Shown here piece by piece: positions 18,994-62,900 of a stretch of 64,000 bases of DNA; the first letter of the stretch is position 1, and every line of letters begins with the position of its first letter. Below the pieces are notes generated by a model, which ran no database searches, had not been told where the DNA came from, and saw nothing but the letters and a program-made list of their open reading frames with translations. The position numbers and the translations under genes were made by a program. Origin of the DNA: Rhododendron vialii (lineage: Eukaryota; Streptophyta; Magnoliopsida; Ericales; Ericaceae); the NCBI RefSeq assembly GCF_030253575.1, contig NC_080561.1, positions 7,639,001 to 7,703,000 of the forward strand, in the 5' to 3' direction.

Positions 18994-19370
18994 CTACACA
19001 CACAGCAATTTGTGCACAGATTGTGCACAGATTTCGTTGTAGGATCCACCACGGATCCATACAAATCCTTCGAGCCGTTCATTAAATGTAAAATATTTTT
19101 TCAAGGGTCCCCGTAAAAAAATAAGCTCAATCCAATACCTATAGGTGCTCCATCCAACCATCTAACTTTTCATTCAGATTTTCGGATAATGAAAAGTTGT
19201 ATGATTGGATCGAGCACTTATAGGTATCGGATTGAGATTATTTTTTATAGGGACCCTTGAAAAAATGTTTTACATTTAATAAACGGCTCGGATGATTTGT
19301 GTGGAATCCGTGATGAGCCCCACAATGAAATCTGTGCACAATCTGTGCACAGATTTGTATGTGTGTGTAG
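18994..19370. mobile_element. Long-hairpin MITE with CTACACACACA termini
   Basis: Nearly the whole 377-bp element folds on itself. The left arm has CTACACACACA, TGTGCACAGATT and AATAAGCTCAATCC, and the right arm repeats them inverted. The loop lies near 19165-19185. No target duplication is obvious. The inner motif (AAACTCAATCCGATACC-like) is shared with the hairpin at 56338-56687. Confidence 0.75.
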
Positions 19371-19401: not shown

Positions 19402-20520
19402 CTATCGGTGAAACAGACCTATTCCTGTTTTGAGCAATGAAGAACCACTCTGTAGCAGGATTAGTAATGTCTTGGGTGTCGAACAACTTAGAATTAGGAG
19501 GGTTACCGGGAGAAGAATTGAAGTGAGATCTATTCTGATTGATCCAAAATGCACCAACAAGCGAAAGGGAAAAAGCAATTTGCCAAGGATTTCCCGAATG
19601 ATGGTTGCAATGGAGATCACTAGTTTTGGAAGAATATAACCCCGGAGGAGTAGGGAATCCAAGTGAGGACCAAATGTCCTTGGCTCTCTTGCAGTCACGA
19701 ATGACATGGATTGTATATTCAATAAGGCCTGGACAATGTGGACAGAAATGGACTGCGTGGACGAGGTAATGTCAAGAGTACGCAAATTATCCGAGGCGAG
19801 GAGGCGGTCTTGGGCAGGCAGATGTAAAAAATAAAGGATGACATGAGGGTTAGATGGGGTTTTCCAAACTACCAGAGCCAACGCAAGTCAGCAAAAGGTG
19901 GGTTGCTCGCCATATCAATGCATAACTAATAGGGATCACAACTCCCGAACAAAGCATTGGAGGAGTTCCAACAAGTGACGACGTCGGAGTTTCGTTGTAC
20001 TACAATTGAACCGTATGGCTTGTTATCAAGGAGAAAACGTGGGGAGGCAAGACCAAATAGATACAATCAAGAGACCATGTCCCCGGCCCCATTCCAGACA
20101 TCACCAACTTTCAAACCAAAATCGCTCGGGGTAATAAGCCCCTCAAATTGATCTTAACGTAAGGGACCAGAGCCCAGCGAGGTTCTACCACCTTTGATGA
20201 CTACTCGTGAACCCTTATTGAACAACTCCTTGCCTTCTTGAATGCTTCTCCACCGAGGAGAAGGTTTGGGTGAACGGGTGTTGATATCAACGTACTTATC
20301 CTGAAGAACTCTGGCCCAAGGAGAGTCCGGCTCATTATGAAAACAATAGTTTAGCAAGCACAACTTCATTGGCATGCGACGAACACCTAATGCCTAGGCC
20401 TCCCAAAGCCTTAAGTTTGACAACTTTAGCCTAACTTATTGCGTGTAATTTTCTTCGCTTAGCCGTGGAATCCCATAAAAAAAATCACCGTTGAGTCTGT
20501 TTATCTAATTAACCTGTTAG
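19402..20520 (-). pseudogene. LINE (non-LTR retrotransposon) C-terminal relic
   Basis: Minus-strand frames carry PDSPWARVLQDKYV and WRSIQEGKELFNKGSR, typical of the region after the reverse transcriptase in plant LINEs. Farther on comes a zf-RVT-like part (FLHLPAQDRLLASDNLRT). Upstream, in a shifted frame, FLWDSTAKRRKLHAI and LRLWEA resemble the usual FLWGSS..W..V..PK..GGLG motif. Several frameshifts make it non-functional; no 3' tail or target duplication was identified. Confidence 0.65.
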
Positions 20521-24000: not shown

Positions 24001-25944
24001 GGGACATCATATTTTCTGCGAAAATATGGCCCCACCTCTGAGGAAGTTTCAATAATGCCATAAGAGGAGCTTCTGTTGGGGCATCATTGGGGACGGAGCC
24101 CGAAGTAGCTATCCCTTTGCTGGGTCTGGGTCTGAGACTCTGGAATCTGGATGTTATTGGTATTGAAGATTAGATGATCTGAGCCTCCTGCCTGATGCTG
24201 TCCTCTTTTTAGATGATTTTGGAGGGAAGATCATCAATGTCAGTGCATTCGTAATCAGGAAGTGTGTGGTATGTTCAATTCTGGTGACTAGCATGCTACC
24301 AGGCCACCGGCTGTTGGCTGGATGGACATTTCCTTGACCTTGAAGAGGAAGGTGTGAGGTCGAAGTGTTTGGTGGGATGCAAGTGTGCATTTTTGTCGAT
24401 GAAAAAAATCTCAGTTATCACCAGATACCTTTTGCTGACATATGATGTCAGGACTTTGACTATATTCCTTAGCATCTTATTTGGAGTTTTAGCTGAACCT
24501 GTGAGATGGATAGAGAATAAAAGTTATTATTATGTTTGCATATTTGAGCTACAAACTTCAACGTGCTCTAATAGACTCATCCATTTTGCCTTGTGCAGAT
24601 CCTGATAGGCCAAAAAATGACAAAGCATCCATTCTCTCCGATACTGTCCAAATCGTGAAGGATTTGACTGCTCAAGTCAACAGACTAAAAGCCGAGTATA
24701 CTACACTTAATGAAGAGTCTCGTGAGGTGATATTTTTTGTTTTTTGCAACAATGTACCAATGCTGTGTTGCACATTCAATTGAACATTCTGTTTTATTAG
24801 TCCCTTTTATTTTAATGCAGTTGACTCAGGAGAAGAATGATCTGAGAGAAGAAAAGGCATCTCTTAAATCGGACATTGAGAACCTTAATGCTCAGTATCA
24901 GCAAAGACTCAGGGCTACATTTCCGTGGGCTACTATTGATCATTCAGTTGTTATGCACCCTCCTTCATATCCCTTGCCTGTCCCACTGCCAATGCCAATA
25001 CCTCCTGGGGCAATCTCCATGCATCCATCTTTGCAGCCATACCCCTTCTTTGGGAATCAAAATCACGGTGTTATTCCTAACCCATGTTCGACTTTTGTTC
25101 CGTATGTAACTCCTAATCCTGTCATTGAACAACCACCCACCCAGTACGTGTCTCCAGCCATGCATCCAAGTAATAGATTTAATATTCCAAGCAAACAAGA
25201 TTCAAGAAACAATCCATCTGATTGTCAAGGGGAAAGCAAGTTCGAGAAAAGTGAGGCCTCTGATGATGTTACGACTGATTTGGAGCTCAAGACACCTGGA
25301 TCCACACCAGATGAGGTCAGTTATGGCCTGCTTGTTTAATTCGTAGGACAATCCTGTGGATATAATTACCATAAAATCGCATGGTTGATGGTAAAATTTG
25401 AATGGTTAACCTCATACAAAGACTACTCTTAGCAGAAAGGCATTTGTTAATGTGATGGACTGAGCTTGCTTCTCTGCGGTTTGGAATCTAACTGTGGGAT
25501 GCAGTTTCATTTCTGGACCCACCACGGGTCAATGTTCTTTTTGAATGGGGTAAATAATAGTAATTAACCTTTTCCAATGGGTCAGTCGACAGTGCAACTT
25601 CCTCAATGTGGTTGCCCCTGACCTCACAACTATTCTTGGGCACCATGTTAGCCCTTAAAATCAACTATGCTGCATGTACCTAGGGTGAAGGAAAAAAACA
25701 AGTAGAATTAAAAGAAAAGAGGACGGAAATGACAAGGAAGTTTAGTATGTTCAATAGATTTGCTTTATGTGACCCTGTAACTGATTTGCAGGATTCTTCA
25801 TCTGGGCAAAGAAAATCCAAGAAATTGCTGACGACGGAAAACAGCCTCACAGATGTAAGCTCGCCTAGTGGGTGTTCATCGTCTCAGAGCGCACAGGATA
25901 GCTCATCGAATAGTGTAGCTGGTGGGGGAAAGGACAAAGACTGA
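21039..25944 (+). CDS. bHLH121: bHLH transcription factor, bHLH121/URI-like (subgroup IVb)
   Basis: Nuclear regulator; in Arabidopsis bHLH121 (URI) heads the iron-deficiency response together with subgroup IVc partners. Exons 21039-21130, 22689-22804, 24599-24726, 24821-25315 and 25792-25944 join in frame to 327 aa. The bHLH domain spans about residues 43-95: basic region ARKFQKADREKLRRDRLNEQF, loop DPDRPKNDKASILSD, helix 2 TVQIVKDLTAQVNRLK. It continues as a leucine-zipper-like coiled coil (LTQEKNDLREEKASLKSD) to about residue 140. A Pro/Met/His-rich middle, LELKTPGSTPDE and a Ser-rich tail ending SVAGGGKDKD match bHLH121. The first exon (30 aa) is an extension relative to the short Arabidopsis N-terminus as I recall it. 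Introns 1 (1.56 kb) and 2 (1.79 kb) contain a SINE and unclassified repeats. Confidence 0.9.
22165..22345 (-). repeat. SINE-like sequence in bHLH121 intron 1
   Basis: On the minus strand, an A-box-like AGTCCACTTGATTGG, a B-box-like GGGTTTGATTC and a 3' segment GCGCACGTAAGCTAGCC resemble the SINEs elsewhere in the window. Ends are not sharply defined. Confidence 0.45.
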
Positions 25945-26006
25945 AGAAGGGCAAAATGAGAAAATCCTGGTGGTTAGTCATGTCCTATTGGGGTCAAAGT
26001 TGTGGA

Positions 26007-26400
26007 GAAAACCAGAGATCACTTGGTTGCTCCGATCAGGAGATCACTTGGTTGCTCCGATCAGGTGCTCGTTTACTTGCATGTTTTGCTTTAACAAAAA
26101 CATTAAAGAAACTCGATACTCAATTGAAAGAGCTTGAAATGACAAGACAAGGGGTGCAAATGGGGTGGATGATGACCACAGAAAATTGAGAGTTATTGGT
26201 CCGTGACTTATAGTCCAATAATTCTCACTTTCCTGTGGTTATCACCCACTCTCAATTGAGTTTCGAGGGGTGAGAATTATTGCACCCATTGTCTTGTCGT
26301 TTCAAGCTCCTTCAATTGAGTTTCGAGTTCCTTAATGGTGCTATTGAAGCAAAACATGTACCTGAGCTGTCGCCCGATCGGAGCAACCACGTTATCTCCG
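26007..26400. repeat. Inverted duplication of an NLR coiled-coil fragment just after bHLH121
   Basis: Two arms, about 26007-26190 and 26221-26400, are inverted copies of each other. The apex is TTATTGG/CCAATAA around a loop of about 15 nt. Read on the minus strand, the right arm encodes an uninterrupted piece resembling the N-terminal coiled coil of CC-NBS-LRR resistance proteins (VVAPIGRQLRYMFCFNSTIK, then KELETQLKELE and TRQWVQ), ended by a stop. The left arm carries the same sequence with a frameshift, a 25-bp local duplication (26016-26065) and several substitutions. The right arm has an extra block of about 31 bases near 26248-26278. The structure starts about 65 bases after the bHLH121 stop codon. 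Confidence 0.8.
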
Positions 26401-26795
26401 ATTTTCTCATCAAGTTCCCTCTCTTTCTGCTTCTTTATTAGTCATTTCCTTTTGCCAGCATCCCTCTATGGTGTCAATGTGGCAGAATAATTGTGCTGTT
26501 TGTGTCGATGGAATTTGGTATTTGCCTGATACCGAGCGCTTAGGGTCTACCCTTCTTCATCATCTGCATTTACAGGGGAGAAATGCTTGGAGTCGTGCTA
26601 AATTTTACTGTGGTTTCGCATAGGAGTAGTTGCATGTAAATTGTAAAGACTATCTAATCTGGGATGATGTAAAACTTCACCTTCACTTCTTGGACTTTTT
26701 TTTTTAATATTTTGTGAAAGCTAGTAATAGTTCGCCATACCTGCATTCCTATACAAAACCACATGCACCAATGATCCGCTATATAAACAAATCAG

Positions 26796-36290: not shown

Positions 36291-37417
36291 TTGAGTTATG
36301 CCACAAGAAAAACTAATGGCGCCGACACACCTAACCTAACTTTAAGAGCAAGTGCATTCCTTGTCATAATGGTTAGGCTAACTTTTGTGTTCACGCTAAT
36401 AATTAATTATTAATTTATACAGAACAATTTTTTGATTTTGTTCTTATTCAATTTTTTTCCGCATTTTTTTAAATTTTATGTCAAACTTTTATATGATATT
36501 GGTTCGTCTCGACAAGAAAAATCAGAATAAATACAAAATTATGACTTTTACACAAGTATTTTGAAAAATATCTAAAGAAAAGCTCAAAAAGTTAGATTTT
36601 TTGACTTTTTCTTGAATATTTTCCAAAATACTTGTGTAAAAGTCATAATTTTTTACTTTTCGGGTTCCTCTTATCAAGACGAACCAGTATCATATAAAAG
36701 TTTGACATAAAACTAAAAAATGCAAAAAAAAATTGAATAAAGACAACAAAAAATTGTTCTGCATAGTTAATTATTAGCGTGAACTCCCAAAAAAAATTAA
36801 AATCAACAAGTACTTCATTGGGCCATCTAGAACTCATAATTACAAGTTCGATTTCTAAAACTAGTTTGGGAAAATGACGGTCCATGACGTATTTTGATAA
36901 TTAATACTCGTCAATGACATTTTTAGCATTAACAAATGTTGAGTTATGCCACAAGAAAAACTAATGGCACCGACACACCTAACCTAACTTTAAGAGCAAG
37001 TGCACACCATGTCAGAATGATTAGGCTAACTTTTGTGTTCACGCTAATATTTAATTTATGGAGTACAATTTTTTGATTTTGTCTTTATTCAAATTTTTTT
37101 CGCGTTTTTTTAATTTTATGCCAACCTTTTATATGATATTGGTTTGTCTCGACGAGAGAAATCAGAATAAGTAAAAAATTATGACTTTTATATAAGTATT
37201 TTGAAAAATATCCAAAGAAAAGCTCAAAAAGTCAAATTTTTTGACGAAAGAGAGAACCAGTATCATAAAAAATTGTTCTGGATAAGTTAATCATTAGCGT
37301 GAACACCCAAAAAAAGGAAAAAAAAAATTAAGTAGAAACGTCACCAAGTACTTCATTGGGCCATCTAGAACTCATAATTACAAGTTCGATTTCTAAAACT
37401 AGTTTTTGAAAATTAAG
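36291..37417. repeat. ~650-bp tandem duplication carrying a hairpin MITE
   Basis: Copy 1 (36291-36877) and copy 2 (36941-37417) both begin GAGTTATGCCACAAGAAAAA and both end with TCATTGGGCCATCTAGAACT and AGTTCGATTTCTAAAACTAG. Copy 1 contains a complete hairpin element (about 36389-36784), with arms starting GTTCACGCTAATAATTAATTA and the inverse. Copy 2 has lost most of the second arm. The structure indicates duplication first and deletion later. Confidence 0.75.
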
Positions 37418-56337: not shown

Positions 56338-56687
56338 GATACTGGTACAGATTTATGTGCGTACAAATGTCTTTTTAGACATGTTTTGGGTCACTCATTT
56401 TGTTTAAAATATTTTGTTTATGGTCCTTGCAAAAAATAAACTCAATCCGATACCGGTAAGGGTATTTACAAAATATTCAACTTTGTTACAGAATTCATGC
56501 ATAAATTCTAAAGCAAAGTTGGATGTTTTGTAAATATCCTTACCGGTACCGAATTGAGTTTATTTTTTGCAAGGATTGTAAACAAAATATTCTAAACAAA
56601 ATGAGCGATTTCGATCATTTTTTTGAGACTCAAAAGTGACCCAAAAAGCCATTTGTACTCGCTGGTAAAATCTCTGCCAGTAGCACC
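56338..56687. mobile_element. Long-hairpin MITE in the ERD2-like promoter
   Basis: Arms pair over most of their length: GATACTGGTACAGATTT with its right-hand partner, AAATATTTTGTTTA with TAAACAAAATATT, AATAAACTCAATCCG with its inverse, and TTTACAAAATATTCAACTTTG with its inverse. It ends about 230 bases before the ERD2-like ATG. The AAACTCAATCCGATACC motif links it to the element at 18994-19370. Confidence 0.7.
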
Positions 56688-59900: not shown

Positions 59901-62900
59901 TATTTTCAGGTCATCATTTGTGAGAATTATGTTGCATGGTTGTCAAGTCTACTGCTATTGCTTCGTACTTGTTATCGGGGTCTTCCGCTTTCTAAAGTGA
60001 GCATGCATACTTTTGTACTTGCTTTTGTCAAACACATTTTACTGAAAATCATTGCATACTCTATGGAATTTAATCTCTATTTATTTAGTTTCCTTGTATA
60101 TATTAAGTTACATCTTTTTACACATACAAACATGTTTACATGTTTATAGTTGTTGTTTTGGTCCTCACACTTCCAAGTTATCTACAACCACTGTGATTAG
60201 TTCAAATACCATCAGTTGTCTGGTCGTGGTCTGGAGGCTATTGTTTGACTTTAATCTGTCATTCGGCTTAAAAGTCCTGAAGCTGATTTTCTGAGTTTTC
60301 TCACCCATCCCATTCTCCTACATTTGAGTATAAGTTAAGGACAAAAGTTGTACTTCGTAAGAGATCAAGTTTTTTTCTAACGAACTCTTGAAGCACTGGT
60401 GAGTAGTGGCTTGAGGCAGTCTTTATGTAAAGCTGCAATTCTATAGCATGTTTTGGAGTTTCAGCTTATGCTACGCATCATTTATATCTTCTGAGGGAAC
60501 TTTTCCATGTATGCTTTCAGTGTACTTTTTTTATTGTTGCGCTGACTCTAGTTAATTTACACTTCTGAATATTTTGCAGGACTCTCACTTAAATCACAGG
60601 AACTAACAGCGCTGTTTTTAGCTGTTAGGCTGTACTGCAGTTTTGTCATGGAATATGATATACATACCTTGCTTGATTTATCCACATTGGCTACAACTCT
60701 ATGGGTTATTTATATGATGCGTTTTAATCTTAAGTCAAGTTATATGGAGGACAAAGACAACTTTGCAATGTATTATGTGGTGAGTACAAGTTTTCGCCTG
60801 TGACATGATGACTACAATTGTTTGTCCTTTTGTTGTCATTCATCCATCACAATATGCTTAAGACAATATTTTTTTAAATTGATTTCCTAGCATCAGAAAG
60901 AATGGTCATTTTTTTATGGTAACTCAGGTGTCCAACTAACGTGCACCTCGACTAATCTTGGGGGCCCAATCCCACCGCCCCCACTTGCGGGGAGCCCAAT
61001 CAAAGCCGTAGCAATTGCTTCCTAAGAAGCACGGACATGTTTATCGGCCTCATCACGGACACGACACTCTTCGGACACGTATTCAACATGCCTAAATACT
61101 TGTCCAATGCATTTATTATATTTCTTTTACTTAGACTCATTGTGGATAGTCTAGGACATGTTGGCAACACTCTTGGAACATGCCAAGGGCTAATTAAAAT
61201 GTCTCCGACGTTTATATGAAATCATAACATACTCTATAATATAATAATACATACATTCACATTTGACGTGTTTTCGGAGAAATAACGTGTCCGTGTGTCG
61301 GTGTTTTGTCGTGTCGTGTCATGTCCCGTATCCAGGTTCGTGCTTCTTAGATTGCTTTGTATGGACTAGGCCCAGAGGAGTTGATAGCACCTGGGAGGTT
61401 TTGAACTTAAGACCTATGTTACATGGACTCGGGTGCGAGTATCGGGTGCGGGTGCAAGTCCACGCGTTGAACCTTCCTAAACTTAAATCTTAGGATATGT
61501 GGATATGTGTCCCCAACTTGGGTACGGGTACGGGGACATGTCCTGAACTCTTGTTTGTAATTATATATTGCATAATTTTCTCAGAATATGTAGTGGTGCT
61601 AATTATTTAAACAAGAAAATTATATTTTTGCTATTTCCCTATTTCATGTCTATGTGAAATACTCGAAATATCGCTTTTCTAGCTAATTTGATATTCCTTT
61701 GCTGTAAGTATCTTAACAATTAGAGGATCTGAGTGTCCAAAAGGATACAAGTGTCGGACACATCGACACGGGTACTTGAGTCAAAATGAAGGATCCATGT
61801 AACATAGCTTAAGACCTTAGGAAGGAGCAAAGTCCTAAGTCCTAGGCCTTAACCACTAGGCCAACCCCTTGGGTTCAGAAAGCATGGTCATTGTGTGTCA
61901 GTTAGGATAAAGAAGCAGGGCGGGCTAAAGACAATTTGGGGCCTAAAGTAGCAATCAAAACTAAGCCTTTTCACATATTACTATTTATTTAAAGTAATTT
62001 AATTTAATTATATTTTTCTAGCTTTTTTGGAAGCAAAATTAGTAATTAGATCTTTGTAGTCAAGTTTTTCAACAAAAACTTATTCTATTGATTATATGGC
62101 TAATCCATTTAATCTTTCTTGTCACAATAAATTAGGATAACCCTTAGAGATGATACACCCTGTCTTTTTCTCTGTCAGTTTTTGTTCCTTATTTTGGGGC
62201 CTGCTTTATTGAGTGTAGAATTATTTCTAATACTATAAATTATTGTTTCCACATATACACATACTACTATGTAATACCCATAGAAAATTTGGGGCCTTCT
62301 CAAATATGGGGCCTAAAGCGCATGCTTCACTGCCCTAATGGACAAGCCGGGCTTGTATAGAAGCTTCTCTTTGTTTCTTCCATAGTACAACGAAATTAGT
62401 TAGTAGGCAGCATTGCTTGGTGCAATGGTAAAAGCTCATGCTGCCATGCATGAGAATGGCTTTGTGTTTAGGTAAATGTCCTTTCAGGAGCAGCACTATT
62501 TGTAAAAGCCCTTGTTTTTGGGATAGTACAACAGCAACAACAAAACCCATATAGTCTCCAATCATTGGGGGTATGGGCGGGGGAGGATTGGAGATAGACC
62601 TAACCTTTGGCAATATGCACAAAGTGCCTGCTCTCAAAATACCACTGAAACAGTGACCCCCCTATACCTGTTTTGTTGCGGAACCATGCCCCTAAATTAA
62701 AGCCGAATGGCATCAGAGAGGGCAGGCTTAAAGACCCAATTCAATTTATGTGCACTTTACCATGCTTTCTTCATTATAGTCCAGAGCATCGGTATGCACA
62801 TTTGTTTTTGGGATAGTATGGCTAAAATTTTAAAGCAGCTCATAGTTTAATGCCCATAGGCCCATATTCAGCTCATATGAATGGCTTCTTATTATCAAAC

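Follow-up and report, generated by a model that had tools for sequence, protein, structure and literature searches.

An inverted pair of NLR fragments behind a bHLH gene of Rhododendron vialii: an apparently old hairpin and a possible source of small RNAs

Immediately downstream of the coding region of a bHLH gene in Rhododendron vialii lies a long hairpin whose two arms, by homology to genes of the same genome, are both fragments of the coiled-coil-encoding start of an NLR exon, set in opposite orientations. The hairpin most likely lies in the 3' untranslated region (3' UTR) of the bHLH gene. We consider it best explained, with a probability of about 0.5, as an inverted NLR fragment that was inserted, perhaps during break repair, is now decaying, and would be diced if the bHLH mRNA carries it. 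The sequence is explicable without any maintained function. The window analysed is the whole stretch of 64,000 nucleotides of contig 5 between 7,639,001 and 7,703,000, and the genome searched comprises 532,647,506 bases in 13 contigs. The features of the locus are collected in Table 1.

Table 1. Features of the hairpin locus and its surroundings. Positions are those of the window; C2 and C3 denote contigs 2 and 3, with positions or megabases of those contigs.
Feature	Position	Strand	Remarks
Last coding exon and stop codon (25942-25944) of the bHLH gene	25792..25944	+	Splice AG/GT by eye, open frames
Direct repeat, left copy, 17 nt	25974..25990	+	15/17 identical to right copy
Left arm	25991..26199	+	NLR sense; NLR homology can be demonstrated from about 26027-26039 onward
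Perfect 25-bp tandem duplication in left arm	26015..26065	+	
Apex loop region, between TTATTGG and CCAATAA	26200..26214	+	
Right arm	26215..26437	+	Antisense to NLR; demonstrable NLR homology to 26405
Net 24-nt insertion in right arm (bulge)	26256..26279	-	In-frame stop 26277-26279; exact ends alignment-dependent
Candidate 21-mer	26311..26331	+	Penalty 0.5 (C3 4.46 Mb) and 1.0 (C2 13.58 Mb); in best-paired helix
Candidate 21-mer	26339..26359	+	Perfectly complementary to C2:14264543-14264563; one mismatch to three other NLRs
Flank, presumed remaining bHLH 3' UTR and 3' end	26401..26760	+	Matches only its own place in the genome
Direct repeat, right copy, 17 nt	26438..26454	+	

A repeat search of the window returns three inverted-repeat pairs at this place (25997-26043/26370-26416, 81%; 26039-26110/26328-26399, 75%; 26106-26159/26280-26333, 91%). 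RNA folding of 25990-26420 gives -218.4 kcal/mol, against -113.7 +/- 6.0 for shuffled sequences (z -17.4), and none of the 100 shuffles matches this value. Both results bear out the inverted arms reported in a preliminary description of this DNA, with true ends that are slightly wider (25,991-26,437); over this longer interval the RNA is predicted to form one long hairpin (-219.6 kcal/mol, z -18.1). Its closed apex, formed by TTATTGG (26193-26199) and CCAATAA (26215-26221), had been placed correctly. The bulge described is also present, as an insertion in the right arm, but it measures a net 24 nt in the alignment rather than about 31 bases. The arms had been expected to fold despite their mismatches, and a long duplex of some 170 base pairs is indeed predicted, within a paired stretch that runs from about 25996 to 26436. 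When the last exon and the presumed 3' UTR are folded together (25790-26700), 123 of the 176 hairpin pairs are unchanged, and the minus strand of the hairpin folds about as strongly as the plus strand (-216.6). There are four indels or duplications in total: the right-arm insertion, which coincides in part with an inverted apex copy (16 nt, 94%), the tandem duplication of the left arm, and one 1-nt insertion and one 1-nt deletion, also in the left arm.

When the window is divided into 148 non-overlapping tiles of 431 nt (median -98.7), just one folds more strongly than the hairpin (start 18,965; -248.9), and the second-strongest (25,861; -149.1) overlaps the hairpin itself. The strongest fold belongs to a near-palindromic 370-nt element at 18996-19366, which is present in high copy (39 other scored places, out of 3020 first-look candidates, are 90-93% identical) and adjoins a retroelement-like open frame recognized by eye on the minus strand (19402-19887). 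The window also contains a 109-nt inverted repeat without a loop, 87% complementary, at 56391-56608, and a cluster of nested inverted repeats of up to 86 nt at 36408-37306.

Each arm aligns with the beginning of the first large exon of CC-NB-LRR genes, the left arm in sense and the right arm in antisense orientation on the plus strand. Within this genome the arms are most closely related to NLR genes on contigs 2, 3 and 8, all of which have long open frames. These include a gene at 14.264 Mb of contig 2, which has a 1021-codon open frame, a Pfam NB-ARC match (E 1.4e-44) and an RPS2-type LRR, and its neighbor at 14.297 Mb, as well as genes at 13.58 Mb of contig 2, at 2.83, 2.85, 4.46 and 5.52 Mb of contig 3, and at 25.58 Mb of contig 8. 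A genome search with the hairpin gives at least 15 matches, every one of which is at the hairpin itself or at an NLR, and no second copy of the hairpin is found among these listed matches. Because the right-arm peptide alone (54 aa) has no Pfam family match, the naming of the arms as NLR sequence rests on the matches to genes of the same genome; the corresponding region of a full NLR likewise has no Pfam match of note. The earlier assignment of the arms to an NLR coiled coil is upheld by these DNA and protein matches, one of them to a gene with NB-ARC, and the relatives found dispose of the suggestion that the arms might match no NLR in the genome. NLR homology is not demonstrable in the outermost flanks (25945-26012 and 26400-26480; lowest P 0.06). 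The arms do not amount to a functional NLR gene with an open NB-ARC frame: each is a piece of only about 160-200 nt, frameshifts and stops interrupt them, and the right-arm frame has no Pfam match.

Other remains of the same NLR clade occur on contig 2. A second, weaker inverted relic at C2:12882544-12883483 consists of decayed NLR fragments of the NB-ARC region (self-match of 112 nt, 77%, about 740 nt apart), and a lone NLR fragment of about 300 nt at C2:6877573-6877871 is 93% like the 13.58-Mb NLR. Additionally, about 1.5 kb of other sequence interrupts the first exon of the 14.297-Mb NLR (C2:14296834-14298369).

The insert starts 46 nt past the stop codon of a same-strand bHLH gene, with which it is probably transcribed. 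The upstream exons of this gene, joined by eye, match the iron-related Pfam domain bHLH_IRO3 (E 2.1e-19) and HLH (E 3.2e-9), and we take the gene to be bHLH121-like, bHLH121 being the name used in the preliminary description. A 17-nt direct repeat flanks the insert (resampling P 0.0005). As the scar of an insertion at a staggered break this repeat is suggestive only, because it was noticed and chosen before testing and because, of 640 control pairs of zones from the window, 10 reach its score. Contig 10 carries a relative of the bHLH gene (61% identity over 162 aa), and alignment reveals nothing comparable within about 1.2 kb downstream of that relative's stop codon. Its best local alignment with 25781-26760 is short and at chance level, and it was dropped as an empty-site comparison because its UTR is too diverged.

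The divergence of the arms was assessed over 162 columns in which neither arm is missing and no more than one row has a gap, so that indels are not counted, with 13 rows used of 37 genome matches. The arms are identical to each other at 130 of these sites, while the 14.264-Mb NLR is identical to the left arm at 125 and to the right arm at 132. Judged by these sites, the arms are about as distant from each other as from living NLRs. The preliminary description had called the hairpin young. A young duplication is rejected, as the arms are just 80% alike (Jukes-Cantor distance 0.23), and the hairpin is apparently old; an age of 14-29 My follows from assumed rates of 8e-9 to 4e-9, and is valid only if a single duplication gave rise to both arms. 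An assembly artefact is unlikely, as the arms differ at 32 of the 162 sites. In the best tree the right arm joins the contig-2 NLRs (61% bootstrap) and the left arm falls outside, and a topology with sister arms is not rejected (AU P 0.22). Fourteen states shared by the arms differ from two contig-2 genes; the arms are left without a private shared change, because all 14 recur in other NLRs of the set.

That pairing, or a mature-like segment, might have been kept by selection finds no firm sign in the arms. The 29 arm differences of the pairwise alignment, read as pairs in the plus-strand transcript, comprise 7 G-U, 9 A-C and 13 other cases and give no sign of strand-specific selection. Mismatches between left and right do not cluster significantly so as to leave a conserved, mature-like segment (P 0.17-0.79). 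The spread of arm differences over codon positions (10/9/13) is uninformative, as NLR pairs show the same pattern. The sole contrary hint is a weak skew, in which sites that do not vary among eight NLRs carry mismatches less often (6/58) than variable sites (26/104; Fisher P 0.025). A like skew toward variable sites is seen in two of three control NLR pairs and is absent in the third. The skew could reflect constraint on the arms, or it could be that the arms derive from two NLR paralogues that had diverged as genes, and it is readable either way.

The expectation that NLR transcripts would be predicted targets held. Target penalties computed for 8 of the clade's NLRs show good pairing between their transcripts and 21-mers of the right arm; the 21-mers starting at 26339-26341 have a penalty of 0 against the 14.264-Mb NLR. 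Across the genome, 40 places match the 26339-26359 site with at most three mismatches, compared with 7 for a reversed control. Five of the 40 are at 0-1 mismatch, namely the hairpin itself and four NLR exons, one has two mismatches (contig 12), and 34 have three. The longest perfect run between arm and NLR is 23 nt (P 0.18), which is not beyond what common descent leads one to expect. Complementarity does not favor the bHLH strand, since a minus-strand reading of the left arm also gives pairing with NLRs (penalty 0.5 against both 14-Mb NLRs of contig 2).

With respect to class, the locus has the extended duplex and the arm homology to would-be target genes that characterize inverted-repeat hp-siRNA loci. 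For MIRNA genes, annotation criteria limit the foldback to about 300 nt and ask for a miRNA/miRNA* duplex with few mismatches and small bulges. The paired stretch here exceeds 400 nt and is too long by this measure; a suitable duplex is available, with 200 of 310 one-sided candidate 21-mers having at most 4 unpaired positions and at most 2 nt of length difference in the minimum free energy fold. Membership of a known miRNA family finds no backing in Rfam, where no family is hit at its gathering score and the best of four sub-threshold hits, MIR8562, reaches 39.5 bits against a cut-off of 211. Elsewhere in the window, the same database identifies an H/ACA snoRNA, snoR100 (RF01219, 87.7 bits), on the minus strand at 62669-62776.

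In the reading that we prefer, a fragment of a CC-NB-LRR gene, from the start of the coiled-coil exon, would have been placed twice, in inverted order, into the presumed 3' UTR of the bHLH gene. The probable route is a staggered break whose repair drew on copied filler DNA, and the 17-nt flanking repeat would then represent the filled-in break; such a route for gene fragments in plant genomes is described in PMC3445842. After insertion, the arms would have diverged about as much as their NLR relatives. A bHLH mRNA that reads through the insert would contain the predicted duplex, which Dicer-like enzymes would be expected to cut into siRNAs of 21-24 nt, no single product prevailing. The siRNAs of the right (3') arm would be antisense to the members of a small NLR clade, whose expression they could weakly lower. 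We put the chance that the hairpin RNA is diced at about one in two, and that of a measurable effect on NLRs at about one in six.

It may instead be that the locus is inert debris, two inverted NLR pseudogene fragments that never yield small RNAs. We regard this as somewhat unlikely. The negative tests for selection on pairing are what such debris would give, and the weaker inverted relic and the lone fragment on contig 2 indicate that debris of this clade is not rare. However, a coding exon on the same strand lies just ahead of the hairpin, which makes its transcription likely, and plants normally dice long RNA duplexes.

The position in the presumed 3' UTR also allows an action in cis, in which the duplex would make the bHLH mRNA itself less stable or reduce its export or translation. 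By analogy this has a precedent in rice, where an sMITE in the Ghd2 3' UTR represses translation in an OsDCL3a-dependent manner (PMC5338036). The UTR of the Rhododendron gene may, however, end before the hairpin or be spliced, and we hold a cis effect to be unlikely, but to be taken seriously as a rival.

It is more doubtful still that the hairpin is a selected NLR-regulating small-RNA gene, a proto-MIRNA or hp-siRNA locus whose 3'-arm RNAs act against a coiled-coil-coding site of four or more NLRs. The perfect 21-nt complementarity to one NLR, with a single mismatch to three others, is consistent with such a gene, as is the shortage of arm mismatches at NLR-invariant sites (again P 0.025). 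NLR-targeting miRNAs are furthermore thought to begin as inverted NLR pieces, and the coiled-coil region is named as the target of miR5376 and miR5041 (PMC10575705 and its Table 1). Against this, the pairing differences are spread as by chance, there is no G-U excess, long perfect runs are not unusual, and both the length of the foldback and the Rfam result point away from a MIRNA gene. The weaker inverted relic on contig 2 also makes inverted NLR debris less special, so that a functional reading weighs less.

A hairpin transposon, either a MITE or a Pack-MULE, with captured NLR sequence would account for the inverted arms and the flanking direct repeat, but it is very improbable given that no second copy is found among the at least 15 genome matches listed, where transposons of this kind have many copies and the repeat hairpin at 18996-19366 recurs widely, that no terminal inverted repeats are seen by eye at the 25991 and 26437 ends, and that 17 nt is, to our knowledge, not a usual target-site length for such elements.

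A much bolder extension, to which we give hardly any credence, is that the mRNA of an iron-response regulator carries an NLR-silencing hairpin, with iron status thereby determining how much small RNA is directed against a CC-NLR clade. If true, this would be a built-in link between nutrition and immunity. The interest of the locus under the preferred reading, as decaying break-repair filler that may be diced, is of another kind. An NLR fragment that has become a hairpin in a probably transcribed UTR, with no second copy found, is a clean case of the starting material proposed for NLR-targeting miRNAs, and it makes this step testable with ordinary small-RNA libraries and in other sequenced rhododendrons. 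A search of titles and the beginnings of abstracts found no prior account of the locus; a small-RNA study in Rhododendron, with a flower data set from R. pulchrum, reports 84 novel miRNAs (PMC10589353).

Several known systems resemble the hairpin in part. Like the break-repair insertions described in PMC3445842, it is a gene fragment at a non-collinear place with direct repeats that resemble target-site duplications; unlike them, the fragment is doubled in inverted order, and no carrier transposon is seen. The rice Ghd2 MITE is similarly a hairpin-type inverted repeat in the 3' UTR (presumed here) of a regulator gene, and its 24-nt siRNAs depend on OsDCL3a; it is a transposon, whereas the Rhododendron hairpin is an NLR fragment with no second copy found (PMC5338036). 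Candidate action on NLR transcripts is shared with miR482/2118, miR6019, miR9863, miR5376 and miR5041, and an origin in inverted repeats of NLR pieces is considered probable for NLR-targeting miRNAs; the coiled-coil site differs from the motifs named in the other rows of the same table, which are the P-loop, TIR, kinase-2, RNBS-D, ARC, NB and LRR (PMC10575705, Table 1 and adjoining text). The duplex and its fragmentary arms also invite comparison with a more general scheme. In a model reportedly put forward by Allen et al. in 2004, inverted duplications of target genes constitute young MIRNA or hp-siRNA loci. Like the loci of that model, the hairpin is an inverted coding piece of its would-be targets, with homology along both arms and complementarity to a gene family; unlike them, its arms are only 80% alike, its duplex exceeds typical miRNA foldbacks, and it occupies the presumed 3' UTR of an unrelated gene. 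The kind is already known, and the hairpin is a further candidate for it at an unusual address.
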